This document shows, piece by piece, positions 1-26,648 of a DNA stretch of 28,974 nucleotides; positions within the stretch are counted from its first letter, which is position 1, and the number at the start of each line of letters is the position of its first letter. Source of the DNA: a virus. The position numbers and the translations under genes are program-made. The DNA lies in the IMG/VR virus record IMGVR_UViG_3300033143_002586, positions 1 through 28,974 of that record, one strand, 5' to 3'. The notes under the pieces are model-generated. The model was not told the DNA's origin, did no database searches, and was given only the letters and a program-made list of their open reading frames with translations.

Positions 1-211
1 ATATCTCTCTTATTTTCTTTTGTCTTATAGCATCTTGATAATACTTACATATTCTCTTATCCTTATATGATGGCCAATTCGATTTTCCTAAACAAGATCC
101 TCCCCCACCACAACTATATGGATCTTCAATATATTTATTATTATATGTTTTAATTATATGACAATAATATTTCCCATTTTTTAGTTTACTATACGGACAT
201 TGGACATTCAT
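1..211 (-). CDS. Cys-rich small early protein, 3' end cut by window edge
   Basis: The open frame starts at ATG 211 and runs off the left edge after 70 codons. An AAGGTGG ribosome binding site lies 6 nt before the start. The protein begins MNVQCPYSK, has a Cys/Gly patch (SCGGGGSC) and ends at the edge in QKKIREI. That is the beginning of the KIKEILK tail shared by its neighbours, so the true stop should lie only a few codons outside the window. It belongs to the family of small Cys-containing phage proteins that fills 1-4214. Function is unknown; paired Cys residues suggest metal binding, which is inference. Confidence 0.75.
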   Translation of the reverse strand, partial: MNVQCPYSKLKNGKYYCHIIKTYNNKYIEDPYSCGGGGSCLGKSNWPSYKDKRICKYYQDAIRQKKIREI

Positions 212-222
212 GACAACCACCT

Positions 223-279
223 TCAGGACATAAAACGCTTTTTCATACTATTTGTTTTTAATTTTTTTATTGGTTTCAT
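223..279 (-). CDS. Possible 18-codon leader peptide
   Basis: ATG 279 overlaps the TGA of the upstream gene (ATGA) and opens an 18-codon frame (MKPIKKLKTNS...), strongly basic. Its stop lies just before the AAGGTGG site of the next gene at 211. It may only carry ribosomes across the junction. Too short to support a function. Confidence 0.35.
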   Translation of the reverse strand: MKPIKKLKTNSMKKRFMS

Positions 280-572
280 TTCATAATCTCTATTATCTTT
301 AATTCTTTTTCTGTAGGATATCCTATATGATCTAAATCAAATTCTTCTAGTAATACTTTTTTATTTTTTATTGTAATGAACCATATTGTATATGATAATA
401 TACAGGGAATCAAAAAAATAGTAATAAAAAAGAATTTTATTTTATTCTTAATACCGTTAGTACTGCCGAATTCATCATTATAAAGTTCTAGGTAGTTTTT
501 CTTGAGTTTCTTGCTACAATAAGCTTTTAATAAACATTTTAATAATAATGGTTTTTTAATCGTTCTAGTCAT
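276..572 (-). CDS. Small single-pass membrane protein
   Basis: This 98-residue protein has a basic N-terminus, one clear hydrophobic segment at about residues 47-67 (FFFITIFLIPCILSYTIWF) and an acidic C-terminus ending KIIEIMK, a variant of the KIKEILK tail. The start ATG 572 overlaps the stop of the upstream gene by 4 nt, and its own stop overlaps the next ATG. No family recognised; the membrane location is inferred from the segment. Confidence 0.7.
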   Translation of the reverse strand: MTRTIKKPLLLKCLLKAYCSKKLKKNYLELYNDEFGSTNGIKNKIKFFFITIFLIPCILSYTIWFITIKNKKVLLEEFDLDHIGYPTEKELKIIEIMK

Positions 573-796
573 TTTAATATCTCTTCAATTAACATTCTTT
601 TTTTGTCTATACAATCAAAAAGGAAAGACCATGTATTATCAAGGTGTTCGTCATATATATCTATACAGTCTACGTTTAATTTTTTTATTTGACCTTTCTT
701 CCCTAGGTATTGATCCATTAATATGTTCCAATTAAAATGCATTATTTCATGTGCATTTTTTTTAATATATACCCAATCTCCTACTTTATATTTCAT
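569..796 (-). CDS. Small SH3/KOW-like early protein
   Basis: This 75-residue protein opens MKYKVGDWVYIKKN and later has GKKGQIKKL. The pattern resembles small SH3/KOW-type beta-barrel domains, but the assignment is weak. It ends in MLIEEILK, encoded so that GAAGAG lies upstream of the overlapping ATG of the next gene. It overlaps both neighbours by 4 nt (ATGA). Function unknown. Confidence 0.75.
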   Translation of the reverse strand: MKYKVGDWVYIKKNAHEIMHFNWNILMDQYLGKKGQIKKLNVDCIDIYDEHLDNTWSFLFDCIDKKRMLIEEILK

Positions 797-1002
797 CTCA
801 TTATCTCTTTTATTTTATCTTGCTTTTCCAGTTTACAGGCTACTATATGTTTTTTAGTATTTTTTGAAATAAAGTGTTTACAACTTATACAAAATCCTCC
901 ACCAACATTAACTATTTGCGAACTTTTAAAATTATCGTTTATATCTCTTATTCTGAATCCATATGGGCAATCATCATCGGCCCCATGCATATAATATTTC
1001 AT
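793..1002 (-). CDS. Cys-rich small early protein (CPY...C..C..F type)
   Basis: This 69-residue protein has the spacing CPY, then VGGGFCISCKHF, then VAC. The same layout is seen in the products of 3115-3324 and 28056-28250, so these three form one subfamily. Four Cys in two pairs suggest a metal site (inference). It ends DKIKEIMR; start and stop overlap the neighbours by 4 nt. No function can be named. Confidence 0.8.
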   Translation of the reverse strand: MKYYMHGADDDCPYGFRIRDINDNFKSSQIVNVGGGFCISCKHFISKNTKKHIVACKLEKQDKIKEIMR

Positions 1003-1223
1003 TTTAATATCGCCTCTATTTTTTGTTCCCTTTCCAACTGATATAATACAGGATAGGTGGCCACGCTGGGGCCATCATGACAGCTACATAATTTGGGATT
1101 GAAATTACACATATGACATTCTGCAGAACATTTCCAATATCCATTATTACCTCTATACAATTTAATTTTCCCATATTTTAAGGTAATGGGTTTATTTATT
1201 ATATGTTTATATACATATTTCAT
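999..1223 (-). CDS. Cys-rich small early protein (LYRG type)
   Basis: This 74-residue protein has GKIKLYRGNNGYWKCSAEC followed by further Cys and His residues. The KLYRG motif also occurs in the product of the adjacent gene (1225-1440), suggesting a local duplication. The tail is QKIEAILK, encoded as ATA GAG GCG ATA TTA AAA TGA, so GAGG serves as ribosome binding site for the next ATG. No ribosome binding site is visible before its own start, one of the few junctions where the upstream gene lacks the tail. Confidence 0.75.
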   Translation of the reverse strand: MKYVYKHIINKPITLKYGKIKLYRGNNGYWKCSAECHMCNFNPKLCSCHDGPSVATYPVLYQLEREQKIEAILK

Positions 1224-1224
1224 T

Positions 1225-1440
1225 TTAATTATTTTTTATATGGACTAATATATCTCCACAAGAAGAATGATCAAAATTATGAACAATCTTATTTTTGGAT
1301 ATAAACCTATTAATATCAGACGATCTGAATTTTGATTTCTTAGTCTTTTTTAATATATGAGATACAATGGGACATTTCTTACATATATTATTACATATGA
1401 CTCGGCCCCTATATAATTTCATTTTTTCTATTTTATTCAT
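1225..1440 (-). CDS. Cys-rich small early protein (LYRG type), no KIKEILK tail
   Basis: This 71-residue protein begins MNKIEKMKLYRGRVICNNIC and continues with CP and a later Cys. It is similar to the next gene's LYRG motif. It ends LVHIKNN without the common tail, and its TAA stop sits two bases before the next ATG with no purine-rich site. The start overlaps the upstream stop (ATGA). Possibly the 3' end has been replaced relative to its neighbours. Function unknown. Confidence 0.75.
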   Translation of the reverse strand: MNKIEKMKLYRGRVICNNICKKCPIVSHILKKTKKSKFRSSDINRFISKNKIVHNFDHSSCGDILVHIKNN

Positions 1441-1655
1441 TTTAATATTTCCTTTATCTTGTTTAATTTTTCTTTTTTAAAATAATAACAATCTTTATAT
1501 GATTTGCTATTAATAAGATACTTTTTATTGTGGTATGCTGGTGTAAGAAAATCTGAACAGGTACCATCCTTTTTTGGTTTATAAATCCATTTGCAATTAT
1601 TATGACAGCCGCTCAATTTGTCATACCATTTACATTTTTTACTATTACATTTCAT
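1437..1655 (-). CDS. Cys-rich small early protein
   Basis: This 72-residue basic protein starts MKCNSKKCKWYDKLSGCHNNC with closely spaced Cys/His and has CSDF and CYYF further on. It ends in the full tail NKIKEILK; the codons ATA AAG GAA ATA TTA AAA TGA provide AAGGA before the overlapping next ATG. Zinc binding is plausible but not shown. Function unknown. Confidence 0.8.
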   Translation of the reverse strand: MKCNSKKCKWYDKLSGCHNNCKWIYKPKKDGTCSDFLTPAYHNKKYLINSKSYKDCYYFKKEKLNKIKEILK

Positions 1656-2062
1656 TTTAATTCTGAAATCCCATTTGGATATACTATAATAACTTTAATA
1701 TTATTTTTTATTCCATATCGTATTGTCGACCATGTTCCCGACCTTAATATTTCATTTGTACTATTTGGGGTAGCTAATAATATATCAGATGAATTTACAA
1801 TATCTTTATTTCTTTTCAAATATGGTTTTTCTTCTAAAATAGTTTTTGATTTACAGAACGCCCTATGTTTATCAAATATGGGCGGATGAATTATTATATT
1901 GTCTATTCCATTATTAGAACAAATATTATGAAAATCCTCATCGGATCCTATACAATCTCCGTGATGGAATTCTGATATATAATTATTTTCTATAAAATCT
2001 GTTATTGTCTTTTTTTGTTCAGGGGTCATTCCGTCTTTAGTTCCTGTAAATCCTATTTTCAT
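1652..2062 (-). CDS. SLOG-superfamily (YpsA/DprA-like) protein
   Basis: This 136-residue protein shows a SLOG-type Rossmann layout. There is an N-terminal strand and loop KIGFTGTKDGMT, then HGDCIGSDEDFHNIC, KDIVNSSDILLATP and the C-terminal RSGTWSTIRYG. In this superfamily such segments bind nucleotides or nucleotide-derived ligands; some members sense NAD/ADP-ribose derivatives in immunity, others are LOG-type hydrolases. Which ligand applies here cannot be read from sequence. It sits among Cys-rich early genes, overlaps both neighbours, and ends ISELK rather than KIKEILK. A role in nucleotide signalling or counter-defence is inference. Confidence 0.75.
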   Translation of the reverse strand: MKIGFTGTKDGMTPEQKKTITDFIENNYISEFHHGDCIGSDEDFHNICSNNGIDNIIIHPPIFDKHRAFCKSKTILEEKPYLKRNKDIVNSSDILLATPNSTNEILRSGTWSTIRYGIKNNIKVIIVYPNGISELK

Positions 2063-2244
2063 TTTAGTATCTCCTTAATTTTTTCTTTCTTTGCAAATTT
2101 TTTATATACTGGACATTCTAGTTTATTATCTACTCCATCAAAAGATAAAACACATAATGTTCCAGAATAAGTATTGATTCTATGTAATTTACAAACCTTA
2201 AATGGGCGTAAAGGATTAGTTTTACAATATTCACATTGACTCAT
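2059..2244 (-). CDS. Cys-rich small early protein
   Basis: This 61-residue protein starts MSQCEYCKTNPLRPFKVCKLH, a CxxC plus CxxxH arrangement suggestive of a small zinc knuckle, and has two later Cys. It ends EKIKEILK, with codons giving AAGGAG, the strongest ribosome binding site in the series, before the overlapping next ATG. Function unknown. Confidence 0.8.
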   Translation of the reverse strand: MSQCEYCKTNPLRPFKVCKLHRINTYSGTLCVLSFDGVDNKLECPVYKKFAKKEKIKEILK

Positions 2245-2435
2245 TTCAGTATTGCCTTAATTTTATTATATCTTTTCAAATATTTATTGGCCCATTTCCG
2301 AGCTATTCTGAGCATACAATTATATGGTTTATGATCCACCCTAATTTGTGATGGCATCGGGCAATAGTCACATGACGATACACCGCATTTTCCATTGTTA
2401 ATTATTCTATTAGCTAATCCATATTTACTAATCAT
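2241..2435 (-). CDS. Cys-rich small early protein (C..C..CP type)
   Basis: The start chosen is ATG 2435 (MISKYGLANRIINNGKCG), which overlaps the TGA of the upstream gene as ATGA. An ORF start at 2486 would overlap the upstream gene by 55 nt and has no such junction. The 64-residue product has KCGVSSCDYCPMPS and a later Cys, then a basic helix and the tail NKIKAILK. The GKC...C..CP pattern recurs in 3611-3823, 4017-4214 and 4307-4510. Function unknown. Confidence 0.8.
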   Translation of the reverse strand: MISKYGLANRIINNGKCGVSSCDYCPMPSQIRVDHKPYNCMLRIARKWANKYLKRYNKIKAILK

Positions 2436-2641
2436 CTTAATATCTCTTTTATTAAATTCTTTTTCTCCAACATATGATGAATACATTTATTATACGGGCA
2501 GATAATTATACAATTGCCGTCCCCTATAACAGACTTTTGTTTTATTTTACATTTATGGAAAAGTACTGTTGATCTTATACAATACGGACAATTCTCATTA
2601 AGAGTTTTGTCAAATAATAAAGGTATGTTAAACCTATTCAT
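2432..2641 (-). CDS. Cys-rich small early protein
   Basis: A 69-residue protein with ENCPYCIRSTVLFHKCKI and a second part IICPYNKCIHH, that is, two Cys pairs with histidines nearby. It ends NLIKEILR. The end codons place AAGAG before the overlapping ATG 2435, which fixes the start of the next gene. Metal binding is likely by pattern; function unknown. Confidence 0.8.
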   Translation of the reverse strand: MNRFNIPLLFDKTLNENCPYCIRSTVLFHKCKIKQKSVIGDGNCIIICPYNKCIHHMLEKKNLIKEILR

Positions 2642-2847
2642 CTTAGTATTTCCTTCAATACTCGTCTTTTATGATATTCTTTATCTAAAATATCAGACCT
2701 TAATTCACAATGTCCGAGCATATATCCTGTCCACGGACAATCGATACAAGATACTGCAGAATCCACACCAATTTTTCTGGGACAATACCATATATGCCCC
2801 GAGGAATCAGTATTAAATATATGTCCCTTCCATTCAAATTTTTTCAT
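2638..2847 (-). CDS. Cys-rich small early protein
   Basis: A 69-residue protein with YCPRKIGVDSAVSCIDCPWTGYMLGHC, resembling the CP...IGS..C..C subfamily. It ends RRVLKEILR, with AAGGA in the last codons. Its start overlaps the 3' end of the receiver-like gene by 14 nt; AGGA lies 10 nt before the ATG. Function unknown. Confidence 0.78.
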   Translation of the reverse strand: MKKFEWKGHIFNTDSSGHIWYCPRKIGVDSAVSCIDCPWTGYMLGHCELRSDILDKEYHKRRVLKEILR

Positions 2848-3118
2848 ATAAATTAATCCTAACTCTTTCCATATTTTTCCTTCCTACTGGATTAGCAGTT
2901 ACAAATTCTATCCTACCAGGAAGATGGTTTTGGTTTTGTTCCAACCAACACATTATACCATATCCTGTTTTTCTGGGATCTTCATCACATAAATCATGAT
3001 CTAATAATAATAAATCCCAGTATTCATTTTTAAGACATTCAATTCCTTGCTCAAATGTACTGGCGATTTTATCAGCATGGATATTTTCTCTAAAATCATC
3101 TATCAATAATATTTTCAT
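2834..3118 (-). CDS. Receiver-like (cREC-type) protein
   Basis: This 94-residue protein opens MKILLIDDFRENIHADKI (acidic pair at residues 7-8). It has DLLLLDHDLCDEDP around 35-48, TGYGIMCWLEQ and finally RIEFVTANPVGRKNMERV. The LDHDL and H/TANPVGRxNM segments are typical of the stand-alone receiver-like family often called cyclic-phosphate processing receiver domain (cREC), proposed to act with RNA-repair or tRNA-related systems. It lacks a partner kinase. Given the tRNA-rich genome a link to tRNA ends or repair is attractive, but that is inference. It overlaps the upstream stop by 4 nt. Confidence 0.75.
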   Translation of the reverse strand: MKILLIDDFRENIHADKIASTFEQGIECLKNEYWDLLLLDHDLCDEDPRKTGYGIMCWLEQNQNHLPGRIEFVTANPVGRKNMERVRINLYEKI

Positions 3119-3324
3119 TTCATTATTTCCTTAATTTTATTTCTTTTCTTTTCTAGTATTTCCTGATTACATATAACAGTAGACATAGAATCTCTAATCA
3201 AAAATTCTTTACATTGTTCACAAAATGCACTACCAATTTTTGGTAAAACATCATCAAATGATGATTTTTTATAATAAGGGCACGCACCGCTTAGAACTCC
3301 TCTATAGTTGGTTGTAACTATCAT
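3115..3324 (-). CDS. Cys-rich small early protein (CPY...C..C..F type)
   Basis: A 69-residue protein with GACPYYKKS, then KIGSAFCEQCKEF and VIC, the same spacing as the products of 793-1002 and 28056-28250. It ends NKIKEIMK; AAGGAAAT in the end codons precedes the overlapping ATG of the receiver-like gene. Function unknown. Confidence 0.8.
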   Translation of the reverse strand: MIVTTNYRGVLSGACPYYKKSSFDDVLPKIGSAFCEQCKEFLIRDSMSTVICNQEILEKKRNKIKEIMK

Positions 3325-3338
3325 TTTAATATTTCCTT
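3321..3338 (-). promoter_or_regulatory. Embedded RBS and ATGA junction (type example of a repeated element)
   Basis: The minus strand reads AAGGAAATATTAAAATGA. In the upstream frame it encodes K-E-I-L-K-stop. At DNA level it gives AAGGA, about 9 nt, then an ATG that shares bases with the TGA. Close copies end the genes at 28758, 28483, 28056, 18664, 3115, 2638, 2432, 2241, 2059, 1437, 999, 793, 569 and 276, with weaker purine tracts at 28247, 3820, 3611 and 4017. It acts as a translational coupling signal by position. Confidence 0.8.
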
Positions 3339-3614
3339 AATTTTTTCTTCTTTTTCTTTTTTTACTAAATACAAATACAATACTGCACAAGCTGATTCCC
3401 CGTTTATATTTTTAATTTCATGTTTTATTCTTTTTTCAAGCTTACTTATTTCTTTTCCTGCCAAGCCTGACCCATCCGTTAATTCTTCAATATCAATATT
3501 TCTTATTTTTGAAATATATTGTATTAATGGACAATCAGGGCTACAACATGCCATTGTAGTCCTATTACAGGGACTCAGTCTACGTCCTTTAATTTGCATA
3601 TCACTTAGTTTCAT
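3321..3614 (-). CDS. Cys-containing small early protein, helical C-terminal half
   Basis: This 97-residue protein has an N-terminal Cys cluster (SPCNRTTMACCSPDCPL) and a long charged, probably helical C-terminal half ending EEKIKEILK. Longer than most of its neighbours. Start and stop overlap adjacent genes by 4 nt. The AAGGA of its last codons precedes the next ATG. No known family. Confidence 0.8.
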   Translation of the reverse strand: MKLSDMQIKGRRLSPCNRTTMACCSPDCPLIQYISKIRNIDIEELTDGSGLAGKEISKLEKRIKHEIKNINGESACAVLYLYLVKKEKEEKIKEILK

Positions 3615-3823
3615 TTTAATATTTCTTTAATCTTATATTGTTTTAAAAGTTCTTTGGCTGTTTTATTGGCCAAGTCATAAGTGCATCCACAAGCATGATC
3701 AGAACTATGAACTATTAAGTCAATAGGGCATTCATTACAATCCCCTATATGATCAGGGCACTTTCCACCATTTTTAATCATAATCTTTAGCTTTCTAATA
3801 TCTCTTTTATCAATAGATTTCAT
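3611..3823 (-). CDS. Cys-rich small early protein (C..C..CP type)
   Basis: A 70-residue protein with NGGKCPDHIGDCNECPIDL, then HACGC, a helical stretch and the tail YKIKEILK. It has the same plan as 2241-2435, 4017-4214 and 4307-4510: helix, GG/R-K-C, C..CP, Cys, helix. The pattern is common among uncharacterised small phage proteins. Overlaps both neighbours by 4 nt. Confidence 0.8.
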   Translation of the reverse strand: MKSIDKRDIRKLKIMIKNGGKCPDHIGDCNECPIDLIVHSSDHACGCTYDLANKTAKELLKQYKIKEILK

Positions 3824-4020
3824 TTTAATATCTCTAGGATTTTATATCTTTTATATTCTTTTAATATATGTATATTAATCTTTTCATCCACTAATGAATT
3901 AATGGGACAATTCTTTTCTATTGGACATATACTACAATCTGACCCATGACAATAATACCTTTTTTTGTCCATATTATTCATATTATATTGTGCTCCATAA
4001 AAAAATTCTTTCTTATTCAT
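3820..4020 (-). CDS. Cys-rich small early protein
   Basis: A 66-residue protein with YYCHGSDCSICPIEKNCPINS, four Cys within 14 residues, then a charged helix and YKILEILK. The end codons give only TAGAG before the next ATG, a weaker site than its neighbours. Function unknown. Confidence 0.8.
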   Translation of the reverse strand: MNKKEFFYGAQYNMNNMDKKRYYCHGSDCSICPIEKNCPINSLVDEKINIHILKEYKRYKILEILK

Positions 4021-4214
4021 TTGAGTATCTCTTGGATTTTATTTTGTTTTAATATCTTTCTAAATTTATTAATTGAGCATATATGCAACGGAGTAATATT
4101 ATTTTTATGATATCTCATGATGCATCCCGTACAATCGCCATATCCAGGGCATCTTCTATCAGTCAGAATTTTATTAATAAGATCGATTTGTTCTTTGGAT
4201 AGTGTTTTGCCCAA
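4017..4214 (-). CDS. Cys-rich small early protein, TTG start, first gene after an early promoter
   Basis: A 65-residue protein (MGKTLSKEQIDLINKILTD...) with RRCPGYGDCTGCIM and a later Cys; it ends NKIQEILK. No ATG is in frame near the 5' end, and TTG 4214 is preceded by a good GAAGGAAT site. The promoter at 4243-4271 lies 28 nt upstream, so this is the first gene of the left early operon. The leader resembles that of the gene at 20137 (promoter, then ATTGAAGGAAT). Confidence 0.75.
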   Translation of the reverse strand: MGKTLSKEQIDLINKILTDRRCPGYGDCTGCIMRYHKNNITPLHICSINKFRKILKQNKIQEILK

Positions 4215-4242
4215 TTATAGATTCCTTCAATTTCGATAAGAT

Positions 4243-4271
4243 ATTATATCATGCAAACCGATCCAGATCAA
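4243..4271 (-). promoter_or_regulatory. Early sigma70-type promoter
   Basis: Minus strand: TTGATC at 4271-4266, a 17-bp spacer ending in CATGA, TATAAT at 4248-4243, with TG one base before the -10 (extended -10). The same arrangement occurs at 19407-19435, 20158-20186 and 26826-26854, so this is a reused phage promoter. It drives the gene run 4214 to 1. Confidence 0.88.
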
Positions 4272-4306
4272 GTTTCCCATCCTATTTGGGCATAACTGAA
4301 TATGGG

Positions 4307-4510
4307 CTATTTTAGTATTTGGGCTATTTTTTCTTGTTTGATTTTTTCAAGTTCTTCTATTGAATTATTGTATATATCAGTCCATAGTATTTTGTCTATA
4401 TCACAAAAATTATCGAATGGACATTGGTAACAGTTTAGGTAGTTTATATCTATACAATGGCCACCATGTTTAATTATATCCTTTAATATATACTCATTGG
4501 AATGTTCCAT
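4307..4510 (-). CDS. Cys-rich small protein behind gp17
   Basis: A 67-residue protein with HGGHCIDINYLNCYQCPFDNFCDI and a charged helix ending KIAQILK. ATG 4510 follows the gp17 stop directly (no gap) and no ribosome binding site is obvious, so translation may depend on gp17. It ends in TAG, followed by the promoter at 4243-4271, not an overlapping gene. It has the same family plan as 3611-3823. Function unknown. Confidence 0.72.
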   Translation of the reverse strand: MEHSNEYILKDIIKHGGHCIDINYLNCYQCPFDNFCDIDKILWTDIYNNSIEELEKIKQEKIAQILK

Positions 4511-6895: not shown

Positions 6896-7126
6896 TTATC
6901 CTTTTGGGTTTGCAAACTTCCAAGCGGCTGCATATTGATCTTGTGAGAGAGCATCTTTTTGCTTGTCGCCCGCATCATCTGCGATTTCTTTTATCCAATT
7001 ATCGACTGCTTTAACACCTTCTGTGTTATCGTCTTCGACATATTGAGGTCTTATATTATCCAAAGCTTGTTTAAGTTTAGAACAACCTTTATCATACTCT
7101 TCGTTTAAATATTCTTCAAATTTCAT
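6896..7126 (-). CDS. CTS-tagged small protein
   Basis: A 76-residue protein beginning MKFEEYLNEE (site L-N-E) followed by an acidic, mostly helical body (YDKGCSKLKQALDNIRPQY ... DALSQDQYAAAWKFANPKG). AGGGAGAT precedes the ATG, followed by ATAAA. Predicted to be packaged and trimmed by the prohead protease; no domain recognised. Confidence 0.78.
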   Translation of the reverse strand: MKFEEYLNEEYDKGCSKLKQALDNIRPQYVEDDNTEGVKAVDNWIKEIADDAGDKQKDALSQDQYAAAWKFANPKG

Positions 7127-7140
7127 TTTATATCTCCCTA

Positions 7141-7425
7141 TTATCCTTTATATGCTCTTACAGTTTCTAAATCTGGTTCATCCTTATCATTTACTCCCAG
7201 TGAGATGCCATCACCCTTTTTCCAAAGTTTTTTATTCCACTTACCATTAAGAGGTTTATCTATCATAACTGAATAATCATTATCATCGCTGATTTTCACT
7301 GTTCCTATAAATAATGTTTTTCCATCTCCAGATTGTATAATAACTTTATCCCCATCCTTGAATTTCTTTTTCTTTGGAAAGTCCTCAAGTTTTTTCATCT
7401 CTTCTAAATATTCTTCAAATTTCAT
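7141..7425 (-). CDS. CTS-tagged SH3-like small protein
   Basis: A 94-residue protein beginning MKFEEYLEEM (site L-E-E). The body has FKDGDKVIIQSGDGKTLFIGTVKIS, a pattern of short strands around G-D-x-V and GTV typical of small SH3-like barrels, and ends ETVRAYKG. AAGGAGAT precedes the ATG. Function unknown; packaging is inferred from the tag. Confidence 0.75.
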   Translation of the reverse strand: MKFEEYLEEMKKLEDFPKKKKFKDGDKVIIQSGDGKTLFIGTVKISDDNDYSVMIDKPLNGKWNKKLWKKGDGISLGVNDKDEPDLETVRAYKG

Positions 7426-7436
7426 TTTATATCTCC

Positions 7437-7634
7437 TTAATCGTCTGATCTTAACATTTTATCTAGTTCGTCAGTTGTAACTTTTTTTGATTTTCCTTTA
7501 TCATCTTTAAGTCCAACATCTTTGGAACTTATGGATACTATAACGTATTCCATTCCCTCAAATGTGAATTTATCACCTTTCTTTGGGTTATCTCGCCAGT
7601 CTTTCATTTCGCTTACATACTCTGAAAATTTCAT
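7437..7634 (-). CDS. CTS-tagged small SH3-like protein
   Basis: The start chosen is ATG 7634 because AGGAG lies 8 nt before it and the product then begins MKFSEYVSE like its neighbours; a start at 7703 would overlap the upstream gene. The 65-residue protein has KKGDKFTFEGMEYVIVSIS and GLKDDKGKSKKVTTDEL, again a small beta-rich fold with K-G-D-x-F. Function unknown. Confidence 0.78.
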   Translation of the reverse strand: MKFSEYVSEMKDWRDNPKKGDKFTFEGMEYVIVSISSKDVGLKDDKGKSKKVTTDELDKMLRSDD

Positions 7635-9759: not shown

Positions 9760-10872
9760 TTATAGAGTTAAGACGTATTTTAATAACTCCGTTGAAACAT
9801 CAACACCAGAAGCTTTATCTATTCCAGTAGTTCCTGGGCAACTATTAACTTCTATGACAATTGGTTTTCCTTTAACAACAAAATGATCTACACCAGAGTA
9901 ATTTGCTTTAACAGCATGGTGGGATCTAAGTACAATTTCTTTTTCTTCATCATTTAATTCATATTTTTCGGCTTCTGCGCCTAATGTTATATTGCTTCTA
10001 AAATCTCCCTTTATCTTGTTCCTTCTTATAGATGCTACTATTTTACCATTTATAACGAATGTTCTAACGTCAAAATCAATTTTATGATATGGTTGGATAA
10101 GAACATCGTTGGCGTCTGATAACCAAATAGATTGTAAAATAGATGGTAATTGTTCGGGACTCTCAACTTTAACAACGCCTTTACCCAGTGATCCTCTAAC
10201 AGTTTTTACAATAACTGGAAATTTATTTCCAATTTTTTTCATCGCTGGTATTATTGAATCTTCATCTGATACCATGACGCTTTCTGGCGTTGGTATACCA
10301 TTTTCTTTTAACTTTTGAAATGTTTTATATTTAGATCCACATATTTTTATTGTTTCTTTTTGATTAACTACTGGTATCCCATTCTCTATTAAGAAATCAT
10401 AAAATGCTTCACGACCTGCTGTTAATTCTTGTCTAACCAATACTTTAACCTTTTTTGGATCTAGTATTAGTTTTTGTGGTTCTTCAAATCTATTATTTTT
10501 TATAAAAATATTTCCGTCTTTTTGTAATTCATAATAAACATTATCTAAAAATATAACATGAGCGGTTATACCCATTTTTTTTAATATTTTTAAATATTTA
10601 TTTTCATCTTTTCCAATACGATCTAAATTATCAATATTTTTAGCTTCAGTGGCGCTAGTAGCTATAATTACTATTTTTTCTTCTTGTTCTTTTAGATAAT
10701 TTTTAAATCCTTTCATATGATTACTCTCAATTTTTAAAATCTTTTTTAATGTTCCAACAATAGCGGCATAGTCTTCGCCATATTGTTTTTTTAAATCCTT
10801 CCAATGTTTTTCGACGACTGCTGGAGACTTACCTGATTGACGACTAAAAGCTTTAATTACAGATGATGGCAT
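9760..10872 (-). CDS. ATP-grasp (RimK-like) ligase with internal CTS
   Basis: This 370-residue protein has three parts. Residues 1-50 are a short helical domain (AFSRQSGKSPAVVEKHWKDL), a type seen in T4-like phage head proteins. At 53-62 lies MKGFKNYLKE, a typical CTS with L-K-E. From 66 on is an ATP-grasp ligase: the glycine-rich loop VKTVRGSLGKGVVK at 222-235, YSGVDHFVV (D329) and VIEVNSCPG (E341, N343) for ATP and metal. RimK-type enzymes ligate an amino acid to a protein or small carboxylate; the substrate here is unknown. AGGA precedes ATG 10872, and a GAGAG site also precedes the internal ATG 10716, so a short form starting at the CTS is possible. Confidence 0.85.
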   Translation of the reverse strand: MPSSVIKAFSRQSGKSPAVVEKHWKDLKKQYGEDYAAIVGTLKKILKIESNHMKGFKNYLKEQEEKIVIIATSATEAKNIDNLDRIGKDENKYLKILKKMGITAHVIFLDNVYYELQKDGNIFIKNNRFEEPQKLILDPKKVKVLVRQELTAGREAFYDFLIENGIPVVNQKETIKICGSKYKTFQKLKENGIPTPESVMVSDEDSIIPAMKKIGNKFPVIVKTVRGSLGKGVVKVESPEQLPSILQSIWLSDANDVLIQPYHKIDFDVRTFVINGKIVASIRRNKIKGDFRSNITLGAEAEKYELNDEEKEIVLRSHHAVKANYSGVDHFVVKGKPIVIEVNSCPGTTGIDKASGVDVSTELLKYVLTL

Positions 10873-18367: not shown

Positions 18368-18667
18368 TCAATCCTCTAATATTGCTTTAATTTTTTTTGA
18401 TTTTTCAATCATATTATATAATTGATCTTCAGTGATTATTTTAACCCCAAAAGATTCTGCTTTTTGTCTTTTAACGGTATAGTTATCTGCATTAGTAACT
18501 AAATAATCCAATTTGCTGGAAACGCTTGAACGATATGATCCACCACATTTTTTTATATAATCAATATAAGTTGGTCGATTATCTCTACCTAATGCACCTG
18601 TTATACAAAAAGTTTTACCTTTAAGTACGTTATCTTCTTTGGGATACCATATATCTGGATCTTTCAT
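18368..18667 (-). CDS. Stand-alone BRCT-domain protein
   Basis: This 99-residue protein is a single BRCT domain. LKGKTFCITGALGRDNRPTY holds the first strand and turn, KKCGGSYRSSVSSKLDYLV the GG motif and second strand, and ESFGVKIITEDQLYNMI the end. It is close to the C-terminal BRCT of NAD-dependent DNA ligase and of replication factor C. Here no ligase is attached, so it may act as a DNA-end or protein-binding adaptor. It ends KIKAILED, an extended form of the common tail. Confidence 0.85.
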   Translation of the reverse strand: MKDPDIWYPKEDNVLKGKTFCITGALGRDNRPTYIDYIKKCGGSYRSSVSSKLDYLVTNADNYTVKRQKAESFGVKIITEDQLYNMIEKSKKIKAILED

Positions 18668-20705: not shown

Positions 20706-20710
20706 AAATG

Positions 20711-20784
20711 TACCCCGAGCAGGCCACGATCCTGCAACGTCAAGTTTAGAAAACTTGTACTCTATCCATTTGAGTTATCGGGGC
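20711..20784 (-). tRNA. tRNA-Arg(UCU)
   Basis: Acceptor GCCCCGA pairs with TCGGGGT (one G-U). Anticodon stem CAAGT/ACTTG, loop TTTCTAA (anticodon TCT). T arm GCAGG/CCTGC. CCA is not encoded. Confidence 0.93.
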
Positions 20785-20789
20785 ATATA

Positions 20790-20859
20790 CGATTCGTGCA
20801 AGAATTGAACTTGCTCGTCGAGGTTTTGGAGACCTGACCGCTCCTTAGCTGTACGAACC
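20790..20859 (-). tRNA. tRNA-Trp(CCA)
   Basis: Acceptor GGTTCGT/ACGAATC, anticodon loop CTCCAAA (CCA), T arm GCAAG/CTTGC with loop TTCAATT. The D loop is very short and the top pair of the anticodon stem is mismatched. Confidence 0.88.
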
Positions 20860-22713: not shown

Positions 22714-23280
22714 CTATTTTCTTCCTATCCTACCTTTGCCTTTATTAAGGTTTTTATAAGTAGGAGTAAGACTATGACAATTTGGACATAATAATTCTAA
22801 ATTGTCTTCTTTATTATTTAACCAATTACCATCTTTATGATCAATCTCCAATGGATGATTTTTTGTAATTGGATTTATTTTATCCCATCCACATTTACAA
22901 CATTTACTATTATACTTTTCGAACAAGTATCTTCTAATGTGCATTGATGTGCTAAATTTTCCTTTAAGGCCATTTTCGTTTCCTTGTTTCCATCTGTCCA
23001 CATATTCTTTATATTCTTTTTTTCTTTGACATGTTTTACTACAATATTTAATTTGTTTTTTATCATAATTATTATCTTCTAATTTTTTACCACAATTTTT
23101 ACAATTTTTATCTTCTTTTTTTAATCCAATTCTATAAACCATTTTATATTTTGGTTTGTACAACCCGAATTTTCTCGCCCAGTTGGCTACAGTTTTGTCA
23201 CATACTCCATATTGTTTACCAATATATACATATGAAAAATTATCATCTAAATATTTAACTAGTTTGTCTTTATCAATCAT
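22714..23280 (-). CDS. HNH homing endonuclease
   Basis: A 188-residue protein. The N-terminal helix-turn-helix YIGKQYGVCDKTVANWARKFG is followed by a CxxC...CxxxC zinc part (KNCGKKLEDN ... KYCSKTCQRK). The C-terminal HNH nuclease has CCKCGWDK, LEIDHKDGNWLNNKEDNLELLC and PNCH. AGGAG lies 7 nt before the ATG, and a late promoter lies at 23308-23315. It is a mobile gene placed in the tRNA array. The stop abuts tRNA-Cys, suggesting insertion precisely upstream of that tRNA or recognition of it. Confidence 0.92.
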   Translation of the reverse strand: MIDKDKLVKYLDDNFSYVYIGKQYGVCDKTVANWARKFGLYKPKYKMVYRIGLKKEDKNCKNCGKKLEDNNYDKKQIKYCSKTCQRKKEYKEYVDRWKQGNENGLKGKFSTSMHIRRYLFEKYNSKCCKCGWDKINPITKNHPLEIDHKDGNWLNNKEDNLELLCPNCHSLTPTYKNLNKGKGRIGRK

Positions 23281-23401: not shown

Positions 23402-23502
23402 AAGTACGGTTATGTTCTGAACCGTGGCAGGTATAATCTTACATATACTCTAAGCTTTAACCAATGCTCTGCGAAAGGAAAACATATTAAAAATATGTCA
23501 TT
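23402..23502 (-). pseudogene. Decayed tRNA-like sequence
   Basis: The minus strand keeps a D-arm-like AGCATTGGTTAAAGCT, a GTATA/TATAC stem and a T-arm-like CGGTT/AACCG, but no acceptor pairing and wrong loop sizes. It is preceded by a perfect 7-bp A/T hairpin (ACATATT/AATATGT). Probably a degenerating tRNA gene. Confidence 0.45.
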
Positions 23503-23573
23503 AGCGGAGGTCGGTAACGCTCCGACTCTATAATGGCTTATGAGACCATCGAGGATCTTATCCTCCACTCCGC
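23503..23573 (-). tRNA. tRNA with CAU anticodon (Met, or Ile2 if modified)
   Basis: Acceptor GCGGAG/CTCCGC (6 bp), anticodon stem ATGGT/GCCAT, loop CTCATAA (CAT), T arm GTCGG/CCGAC. G1-C72 pairing argues against an initiator. The D loop is short and the T loop AGCGTTA lacks TTC, so it is unusual. Confidence 0.75.
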
Positions 23574-23580
23574 AACAAAA

Positions 23581-24054: not shown

Positions 24055-24126
24055 TGGAGAATGACGGTTACGATCCGTCTACTTAACCGTGCAAGGGTTA
24101 TGTGTTCCCGATTATACCAATTCCCC
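24055..24126 (-). tRNA. tRNA-Ala(UGC)
   Basis: Acceptor GGGGAAT/ATTCTCC, anticodon stem TAACC/GGTTA, loop CTTGCAC (TGC), T arm GACGG/CCGTC with loop ATCGTAA. Confidence 0.92.
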
Positions 24127-24665: not shown

Positions 24666-24738
24666 TGGGACGAGTTGGTAACGATCCAACCTTTCAGGCT
24701 CTTCAAGCCCGCACTGATCCATCTCAGCTTATCGTCCC
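24666..24738 (-). tRNA. tRNA-Phe(GAA)
   Basis: Acceptor GGGACGA/TCGTCCC, anticodon stem CGGGC/GCCTG, loop TTGAAGA (GAA), T arm GTTGG/CCAAC with loop ATCGTTA. Confidence 0.92.
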
Positions 24739-24824: not shown

Positions 24825-24896
24825 TGAGAAAGGTGAATTCCGAGATCACAATCTTGAGCATGTAACACTCCTGCTTTGCCTTTAAGCTACTTTCCC
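24825..24896 (-). tRNA. tRNA-Val(UAC)
   Basis: Acceptor GGGAAAG/CTTTCTC, loop GTTACAT (TAC), with one mismatch in the anticodon stem and an irregular T arm (GTGA/TCAC). Functional state less certain than its neighbours. Confidence 0.78.
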
Positions 24897-25058: not shown

Positions 25059-25267
25059 ATATATAAATCACTGACATGCGACTCGTCCAACTCCATGATA
25101 CTTACTAGTTTTCTCACTTCGCCTCAAATTGTGTACTGTCTCCGTGCTGCCAACGGGCTGTATTTTTCTACCCCAAGCAGGGGCAAATTATTTAATTCTG
25201 AAACAAGACAAGTTCCATACAGGATACACACCCATTAAGGACTCGAACCTTATCGTCTTGTTTCTAT
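25059..25267 (-). ncRNA. Structured gap RNA containing a tRNA T arm
   Basis: No real ORF. A perfect 9-bp stem AAACAAGAC/GTCTTGTTT (25263-25255 with 25209-25201) encloses a canonical T arm TAAGG-TTCGAGT-CCTTA (25236-25252) followed by an acceptor-like ATGGGTG. No matching 5' acceptor is found. Downstream, GCCCC/GGGGT and CCGT/ACGG hairpins follow. Either a tRNA 3' remnant in a new RNA or an unknown structured RNA. Confidence 0.45.
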
Positions 25268-25339
25268 CAGAGATATCGGGGAACGATCCCAAAACTGCAG
25301 ATTCAAAGTCTGCCGAGTTGCCAATTACTCTATATCTCT
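25268..25339 (-). tRNA. tRNA-Gln(UUG)
   Basis: Acceptor AGAGATA/TATCTCT, discriminator G, anticodon stem GCAGA/TCTGC, loop CTTTGAA (TTG), T arm TTGGG/CCCGA. Its first two bases are shared with the stop codon of the endonuclease gene. Confidence 0.91.
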
Positions 25340-26093
25340 ATAAATACCTATCACCAATTTTAATAATTTGTCTTTTATCATTATAAATTATTTTTTCTAA
25401 TTCTTTTAAATTCTTATCTTTAAATTTTAATTCGTCTATTCTAACTAATTTATAGTTATTTTTCTTACACCATCTTTCTAATAATTTATCTTTAATTTGT
25501 TTCTTCCTTAATTGGTTATGAATATCCTTAAAATGCCAAACTCCATCATATTCAAAACATATTTTTAATTTTTTAGAATATAAATCTCTAACTATTCTTT
25601 GCCCTAATACTTTTAAAGAGCCTCCGAAAGTCCATTCGTCGTTGGGAAACTTTTTAATAAAATGTTCTCTAATCAAAACCTCATTCTTACTCGTAAAAAT
25701 TGATTTTTTATTTGACATAACTTTTTTTATATAATCTTCATTTTGCCATAATTTTAGAGATGCAATTCTATTTTTTTCTCTTTTTTTATCATTAATATCT
25801 TTTGTTTGTATTCTGCTATTAGCACAACTAACATTACAAAAATACTTTTCCTTTTTCGGAAAATGTTTTTCCCGTTCAACCACGTGGAACATTTTCCCAC
25901 ATTTTTTACAATCAACTTTAAACGATTTTAATTTTCCCAATTCTTCATCATCTCTTTTTTTCTTAGAAATAGAAATATTTTTTGTATTATTTCTACTGGG
26001 ATTTTTCTTACACCACCTTACATGGTTAGAAAAATTTCTACTTGATTCTACCGATATTGTTTCATTACAATGTTTGCATATATTTTCATACAT
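25338..26093 (-). CDS. Homing-type endonuclease with zinc fingers and Vsr-like nuclease
   Basis: A 251-residue protein. An N-terminal ICKHCNETISVESSRNFSNH finger (CxxC...H) is followed by a second zinc part CKKCGKMFH...YFCNVSC. The middle (SLKLWQNEDYIKKVMS) is helical, like NUMOD-type DNA-binding segments. The C-terminal RIVRDLYSKKLKICFEYDGVWHF is a Vsr/EDxHD-type nuclease core related to that of 15494-16429. AAGGA lies 7 nt before the ATG, and a late promoter lies at 26113-26120. The stop overlaps tRNA-Gln by 2 nt. Confidence 0.87.
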   Translation of the reverse strand: MYENICKHCNETISVESSRNFSNHVRWCKKNPSRNNTKNISISKKKRDDEELGKLKSFKVDCKKCGKMFHVVEREKHFPKKEKYFCNVSCANSRIQTKDINDKKREKNRIASLKLWQNEDYIKKVMSNKKSIFTSKNEVLIREHFIKKFPNDEWTFGGSLKVLGQRIVRDLYSKKLKICFEYDGVWHFKDIHNQLRKKQIKDKLLERWCKKNNYKLVRIDELKFKDKNLKELEKIIYNDKRQIIKIGDRYL

Positions 26094-26155: not shown

Positions 26156-26485
26156 TGGACCTGCGGAGCTCCGACTCTCCGGTCCTTAATAAATCCTATA
26201 ATATCTAATATACAACAATTCTTGTTTTAATCAGAACAATAAATCCAAACAAGCAAATAACTTATTATCCTTTTTGTAGTATTTTTCATCAATAGTACCC
26301 ACAAATACTATTAACAATCTTATTAGTTGTTATGACAAATTTTAATAGGAAATAAGCGTCTTATTAAAACCCGTAGCAGCTTACGCTGCTAAAAGAAGGT
26401 TTTCGTCTTCAGTTATTGATTTTGAGATTCACATCTTTGTTGTCAATAATATATTCAATATCAAGTCGAATCCATATTCAGGCCC
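26156..26485 (-). ncRNA. ssrA: tmRNA
   Basis: 330 nt. The 5' end GGGCCTG pairs with the 3' CAGGTCC plus A, forming a 7-bp acceptor, and is followed by the diagnostic TGGATTCGAC. The tag frame ends in codons for TEDENLLLAA and TAA (26413-26381); GCA GCG TAA sits in the AGCAGC-GTAA-GCTGCT hairpin. The 3' T arm is CGGAG/CTCCG, with an odd 8-base loop. The resume codon cannot be fixed; an in-frame TGA a few codons upstream limits the tag to about 15 residues. It would rescue stalled ribosomes and tag products for proteases (AA end). CCA is not encoded. Confidence 0.93.
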
Positions 26486-26570
26486 TAATATTTTTTACAC
26501 TACAAGGTTTGCTCTCACCACCTATTAAGATTAATAATATCTAAGATCAAATTTTCTTTCATGAGAATAT
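26486..26570 (-). other. Leader between tRNA-Tyr and tmRNA
   Basis: A TTGATC at the usual -35 spelling occurs (minus strand, about 26547-26542), but 17 bp further on only TAATAG is found, so a promoter for the tmRNA is weak. Otherwise an AGGT/ACCT hairpin and AT-rich sequence; processing from the tRNA transcript is likely. Confidence 0.3.
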
Positions 26571-26642
26571 TGGATTGACATGGACTCGAACCATGACTTG
26601 TAGTTTTACAGACTAGCGTGCAGCCATTTACACCATCAATCC
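26571..26642 (-). tRNA. tRNA-Tyr(GUA), short variable loop
   Basis: Acceptor GGATTGA/TCAATCC, discriminator A, anticodon loop CTGTAAA (GTA), T arm CATGG/CCATG with TTCGAGT. The variable region is short, whereas bacterial Tyr tRNAs normally have a long arm. Confidence 0.9.
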
Positions 26643-26648
26643 ATTAAA

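Follow-up and report, generated by a model that had tools for sequence, protein, structure and literature searches.

A tmRNA releases stalled ribosomes and attaches a tag to their incomplete proteins. Several phages are known to encode one, among them mycobacteriophage Bxz1 and its relatives, Wildcat, and Bacillus phage G (PMC4131195), and the tmRNA and SmpB are both found among the translation genes of huge phages (PMC7162821). A tmRNA is present in 402 of 18,146 phage genomes (2.3%; PMC9004378), so the initial annotation of the locus described here was right that phage tmRNAs are known, but "rare" was too strong a word. A reduced form is encoded by mycobacteriophage DS6A, which also has a tRNA-like domain (TLD) but little beyond it, and whose tmRNA-like RNA is reported to inhibit tmRNA (PMC4131195). 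In E. coli tmRNA, pseudoknot PK1 can be replaced by a hairpin, and contacts between the D loop and the T loop are necessary for SmpB binding (PMC3968760). Few parts of any tRNA-like molecule are as strongly conserved as the T loop. The literature describes the T54-A58 pair of tRNAs as conserved and reports A54-A58 exceptions in eukaryotes but none in bacteria or archaea (PMC7566577, PMC7912444).

The window, that is, the whole stretch of DNA analysed here, is a 28,974-base linear IMG/VR fragment of a T4-like myovirus, with matches to T4 families for the large terminase, the neck protein, and the tail sheath stabiliser. All of its named genes, its tRNAs, and its tmRNA lie on the minus strand. 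A tRNA cluster at 20.7-26.6 kb includes the tmRNA gene at one of its ends, between the gene for tRNA-Tyr, the last of the cluster, and an endonuclease-like gene (25338-26093). Like the tmRNAs of Bxz1, Wildcat, phage G, and the set of 402, it is a phage-borne ssrA that is complete. The others came to light in standard searches; this one was missed by ARAGORN.

Anatomy of the phage tmRNA

The interval 26156-26485 on the minus strand, which the initial annotation had delimited exactly, is on its anatomy a one-piece phage tmRNA with all landmarks, bar a recognisable PK1, present in order (Table 1). The acceptor ends had been noted as paired, and the strands GGGCCUG and CAGGUCC match at all seven positions. 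The G-U pair at 3-70, earlier flagged for verification, is present, and with the discriminator A completes the alanine identity set. CCA is not encoded; AGG comes next. The D-loop element fits the pattern UGG.UUCGAC and is not accompanied by a D stem, as is usual for tmRNAs. A two-piece (permuted) tmRNA was considered and is ruled out by the order of the elements: 5' acceptor, tag, pseudoknots, 3' acceptor. No second tmRNA 3' end that might be a trace of island or intron insertion was found downstream, CAGGTCCA being unique in the window.

Table 1. Positions of the tmRNA elements and of selected tRNA genes in the window
Feature	Position	Strand	Details
One-piece tmRNA gene, complete	26156-26485	-	330 nt mature without CCA; RF00023 30.0 bits
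5' acceptor strand GGGCCUG	26479-26485	-	7/7 pairs with 26157-26163; G3-U70
Conserved D-loop element UGGAUUCGAC (TGGATTCGAC as DNA)	26465-26474	-	
Helix H2, distal 5' strand ACAAC	26439-26443	-	pairs with 26212-26216
Short hairpin AGAU-GUGA-AUCU at the usual PK1 site	26425-26436	-	from sequence
AAUAACU element immediately before the resume codon	26411-26417	-	common to 85 bacterial contigs
Tag frame GAA...GCG UAA	26381-26410	-	EDENLLLAA-stop
Helix H5 UAGCAGC-GUAA-GCUGCUA	26374-26391	-	7 bp; stop codon inside GNRA tetraloop
PK2	26319-26369	-	S1 26362-26369/26340-26347; S2 CUUAUU 26351-26356/AAUAAG 26319-26324
PK3	26273-26312	-	S1 26306-26312/26291-26297; S2 UUUGU 26301-26305/ACAAA 26273-26277
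PK4	26221-26269	-	S1 26262-26269/26234-26243; S2 CUUGUUU 26247-26253/AAACAAG 26221-26227
Helix H2, distal 3' strand GUUGU	26212-26216	-	
GGAC, preceding the T stem in tmRNAs	26182-26185	-	
T arm	26164-26181	-	CGGAG 26177-26181; loop AGUCGGAG 26169-26176; CUCCG 26164-26168
3' acceptor strand CAGGUCC	26157-26163	-	discriminator A at 26156
tRNA-Tyr, just upstream of the tmRNA	26570-26643	-	last of the tRNA cluster
Altered T-loop tRNAs	20710-20784, 23501-23575, 24055-24126, 24666-24738, 24825-24896, 25267-25340	-	

The tag region resembles those of certain bacteria. A pattern of AAUAACU followed by a nine-codon LAA-like frame occurs in 85 bacterial contigs of the genome collection, mostly Bacteroidota or Ignavibacteria, with tags that include GENNYALAA, GEYNYALAA, and AEDNFALAA. 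The phage frame aligns codon for codon with these tags as EDENLLLAA (GAA GAC GAA AAC CUU CUU UUA GCA GCG UAA), and the resume codon, previously marked as uncertain, is therefore GAA, in the same place as in the 85 bacterial matches. Of the tag first proposed, TEDENLLLAA, nine codons stand, while its leading T is the ACU triplet that precedes the resume codon. The frame was also correctly said to end in LLLAA-stop within a hairpin: the stop codon lies in the GUAA loop of the 7-bp H5, and a hydrophobic (L)AA end with its stop in a hairpin is characteristic of tmRNAs. A first residue of Glu is unusual, Gly or Ala being the rule, and the exact EDENLLLAA context is absent from all other genomes and viral contigs scanned. 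The Bacteroidota-like tag region may point to the source of the gene, though it is only a hint.

Compared with bacterial one-piece tmRNAs (RF00023, Bacteroidota/Ignavibacteria type), the phage molecule has in common the acceptor with G3-U70, UGGAUUCGAC, AAUAACU with a nine-codon tag, H5 with the stop codon, PK2-PK4, and GGAC before the T stem. It differs in its 8-nt T loop, the initial Glu of its tag, the reduced PK1, and the lack of an encoded CCA. In addition, the distal part of H2 is ACAAC/GUUGU in place of the bacterial CAUGC/GCAUG. A full PK1 was not recognised, and a 4-bp hairpin stands in its place.

Detection and support from sequence comparison

The tmRNA model search gave a divided answer. 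ARAGORN reported no tmRNA in the window, most likely because of the odd T arm, and the Rfam model RF00023 matched at 30.0 bits, under its 47-bit gathering cut-off, probably mainly because of the 8-nt T loop. Five of 14 matching control genomes also fell below this cut-off in the same type of search (4/14 archaea), so the threshold does not discriminate cleanly here. Since RF00023 also scores tRNA-sized places in the tRNA clusters of other phages at up to 53.5 bits, 30.0 bits is weak evidence alone, and identification depends on anatomy, not on the Rfam score. The strict motif, made up of the core 10-mer, a 7-bp acceptor, and a 5-bp T stem, has a single instance in the window. The fold of the whole molecule has a z-score of -4.0 (0/100 shuffles), and the three H-type pseudoknots together score 43, whereas dinucleotide shuffles of that region average 11.8 and none of 500 reaches the observed value.

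No DNA relatives of the tmRNA were found in INPHARED, and the absence of a match in these 50,697 phage records means that pairing was retained while the sequence diverged strongly. Scans with the exact T-arm and tag patterns likewise matched nothing. A conspecific contig (L001; terminase 100% identical) ends about 8 kb short of the tmRNA, and the next-best terminases are 39% identical. Given this lack of near relatives with a tmRNA, the comparison is one of differences from bacterial references rather than of within-family covariation. Acceptor pair 4 is C-G in the phage and G-C in 71/71 bacterial references, both sides having changed, and G3-U70 is kept in the phage and in all 71. From this we infer selection on structure over a long divergence. 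A search of terminase-related phages with RF00023 brought up a single tmRNA, of cyanobacterial type, in contig L081; most other matches were tRNAs.

The eight-nucleotide T loop

The unusual 8-base T loop noted at the outset is real (AGTCGGAG as DNA, inside the 5-bp stem CGGAG/CTCCG, 5/5 paired). A canonical 7-nt UUC[GA]ANN loop is present in 71/71 bacterial references, from which the phage loop AGUCGGAG differs. To see whether the odd loop is damage confined to this gene, we searched IMG/VR for sequences in which UGGAUUCGAC and GGACNNNNG-A[GU][CU][GC][GU] are spaced as in a tmRNA. Of eight matches, one is a tmRNA (7113-7455), encoded by contig 3300005826_000294 (L221; 301,683 bases), which belongs to a giant myophage, judging by its genes for a tail sheath and for a baseplate wedge protein. 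The L221 tmRNA scores 148 bits with RF00023 (E 4.7e-60) and has an 8-nt T loop, AGUCGAUG. Its acceptor is GGGGAUG/CAUCUCC, and its tag is GEQEYAMAA.

The two phage tmRNAs share the 8-nt AGUCGNNG loop, G3-U70, UGGAUUCGAC, a nine-codon tag, and the failure of ARAGORN to report them; surveys based on that program therefore undercount phage tmRNAs. L221 differs from the window in its strong Rfam score, its encoded CCA, its tag, and its tRNAs, which have canonical T loops where displayed in full. Outside the conserved blocks the two molecules have no clear nucleotide similarity, and both loops follow the pattern A-G-U-C-G-N-N-G. Because the otherwise typical L221 tmRNA also lacks UUCRANN, a canonical T loop is treated here as typical of tmRNAs, not as defining them. 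In bacteria, a scan for the 8-nt loop gave four matches and no tmRNA among 395 genomes of one phylum, that of the Bacteroidales genome G053, with a gap range short of the longest tmRNAs. Among other phage tmRNAs, T loops were compared in L093 and L094 and are canonical.

In the 8-nt loop, U, C, and G are kept at the places of 55-57, and U54, the m5U site, is absent. Docking of U55-C56-G57 on the GG of the D loop could persist, with loss of the m5U54 site. The loop is most likely an evolved elbow variant common to another phage. This 8-nt T-loop form of tmRNA, beside tRNAs with A54-U58, appears to be new, and no description of phage T-loop variants was found in the open-access literature. If tmRNAs of this class work, they show which elbow contacts trans-translation truly needs.

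tRNA genes with altered T loops

The window was first listed as having 21 tRNA genes, 19 reported by ARAGORN and two more by Rfam. Six of the 21 have T loops without U54/A58, five of them on fully paired T stems. Four are of the form AUCGUNN with A54-U58, namely Arg(UCU) AUCGUGG, Ala(UGC) AUCGUAA, Gln(UUG) AUCGUUC, and Phe(GAA) AUCGUUA; the others are Met(CAU) AGCGUUA and Val(UAC) CUCGGAA, the latter with C54-G58 and a stem paired at 4/5 positions. Positions 54 and 58 change jointly, from U-A to A-U or C-G. The two genes that ARAGORN did not report and Rfam found are Phe(GAA) (24666-24738) and Val(UAC) (24825-24896). A probable Trp(CCA) tRNA at 20790-20859 on the minus strand scores 28.7 bits with a model built here and is also unreported by ARAGORN.

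Among 255 tRNAs from other phage loci there are 16 cases of A54-U58, most of them tRNA-Phe preselected by blast or pattern; independent cases are an Ala tRNA in Vibrio phage D482 and an Ile tRNA in contig L203. The tRNA-Phe of the T5-like phage BSP22A has a T arm identical to that of the window (GUUGG-AUCGUUA-CCAAC), and the AUCGU loop is also seen in tRNA-Phe of T5-like, Justusliebigvirus, and giant phages. With the selected Phe genes excluded, altered loops are enriched in the window (6/21 versus 4/241, p = 2e-5), a guide figure only, as few tRNAs were available for comparison and they had been gathered by similarity.

The occurrence of A54-U58 tRNAs beside an odd tmRNA raises the question of why phages alter the elbow. 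One rather speculative answer, which we consider unlikely, is that a separate class of tRNA elbow has arisen in phages, comprising the 8-nt AGUCGNNG tmRNA and the A54-U58 or C54-G58 tRNAs, as a shield from host factors. Both forms would keep U55-C56-G57 docking and remove U54, and the factors evaded might be tRNA-targeting nucleases, T-loop-homing introns and integrases, or modification enzymes. Group I introns are known to insert in the T loops of tmRNA genes (PMC11915505), and the T loop of the phage tmRNA may have been altered as a protection from homing, among other possible reasons.

Proposed function and alternatives

We consider it very probable that the gene encodes a functional one-piece tmRNA (ssrA) of the T4-like myovirus, dependent on host SmpB and with a modified elbow. 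Once expressed, the RNA would be matured by host RNase P and the CCA-adding enzyme, and charged by host AlaRS through G3-U70. With host SmpB and EF-Tu it would then enter ribosomes stalled on truncated mRNA, which is expected when host transcripts are destroyed by the phage. No SmpB gene was found in the window, in the conspecific contig, or in L221, and the lack of one in the first two is why host SmpB is assumed. The template swap would occur at codon GAA, adding A-EDENLLLAA, whose LAA end would be a ClpXP-type signal. The likely benefit is that ribosomes and amino acids are recycled. Against function stand the sub-threshold RF00023 score, the absence of the canonical U54-A58 loop that all 71 references have, the dependence of SmpB binding on D-loop/T-loop contacts (PMC3968760), the unrecognisable PK1, and the Glu resume codon in place of Ala or Gly.

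Some of these points would also fit a decaying gene, recently arrived and unused, in which the T loop was lost first, since the canonical loop is gone, PK1 is weak, and the score is under the Rfam cut-off. We think this unlikely, as all paired elements are intact despite strong divergence, the tag frame is open, and the tag hairpin is preserved. Moreover, the 8-nt loop class recurs in the otherwise strong L221 tmRNA, and six tRNAs of the cluster have comparable T-loop changes with largely intact T stems.

Still less probable is a decoy for host SmpB or ribosomes that blocks host trans-translation, in the manner proposed for DS6A, although the odd elbow would suit such a role. A decoy would need neither an LAA-ending tag with a stop codon nor three pseudoknots, and the phage keeps both; DS6A retains the TLD only. 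The TLD-only type of decoy is excluded as a class by the presence of the tag and pseudoknots.

A sequencing or assembly error in the T loop is very improbable. A single contig covers the tmRNA gene, the conspecific contig stopping short of it, but no canonical loop can be reached from AGTCGGAG in fewer than three edits, and the same loop class is present in the independently assembled L221. The occurrence of A-G-U-C-G-N-N-G in two phage tmRNAs that are otherwise intact argues against both error and decay. Finally, a looser acceptor and T-stem motif (G-U pairs, 6-9 nt loops) did arise once in 60 dinucleotide shuffles, before any tag or pseudoknot requirement, but chance resemblance in AT-rich intergenic DNA is in practice refuted by the combined anatomy, with tag, H5, pseudoknots, G3-U70, and GGAC all in the correct order and spacing.

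Other phage tmRNAs and other genes of the window

The pattern GGGCCTGNNNNTGGATTCGAC matched other phage tmRNAs with unrelated long tags (L089/L093/L094 and L091). Those of L089, L093, and L094 have the same acceptor strand as the window's, GGGCCUG, and an unusually long 26-residue tag, AKRNLAKLTVLSLVRKNVNSAYAVAA. Permuted-type tmRNAs were found on viral contigs of 198 kb (L081, 1586-1855) and 156 kb (L091, 2797-3205) with cyanobacterial and betaproteobacterial Rfam models.

The gene at 25338-26093, which ends at tRNA-Gln and starts about 60 bases downstream of the tmRNA, encodes a weakly HNH-endonuclease-like protein (phrog_559, E 2e-5). The tRNA cluster itself contains a second HNH gene (22714-23280).

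Between 6896 and 15497 on the minus strand are about 12 mostly small genes whose products start with MKF.EY(I/L).E, a motif that strongly resembles the sequence by which T4 internal proteins are targeted to the capsid; the run may encode a large set of proteins that are packaged and injected. A similar stretch, MKGFKNYLKE, is found in a RimK-like ATP-grasp gene (9760-10872). The minus strand also encodes about 25 small, often Cys-rich proteins with a nearly identical C-terminal (K)IKEILK, located at 1-4500, 18.4-21.7 kb, 24.2-24.4 kb, and 27.5-29 kb. In many of these genes the stop codon overlaps the ATG of the next gene, and the shared ends look like a common ribosome-site/C-terminal cassette that could permit gene shuffling. 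A stand-alone protein of 99 aa (18368-18667, minus strand) matches NAD-dependent DNA ligases, but only at their C-terminal end.
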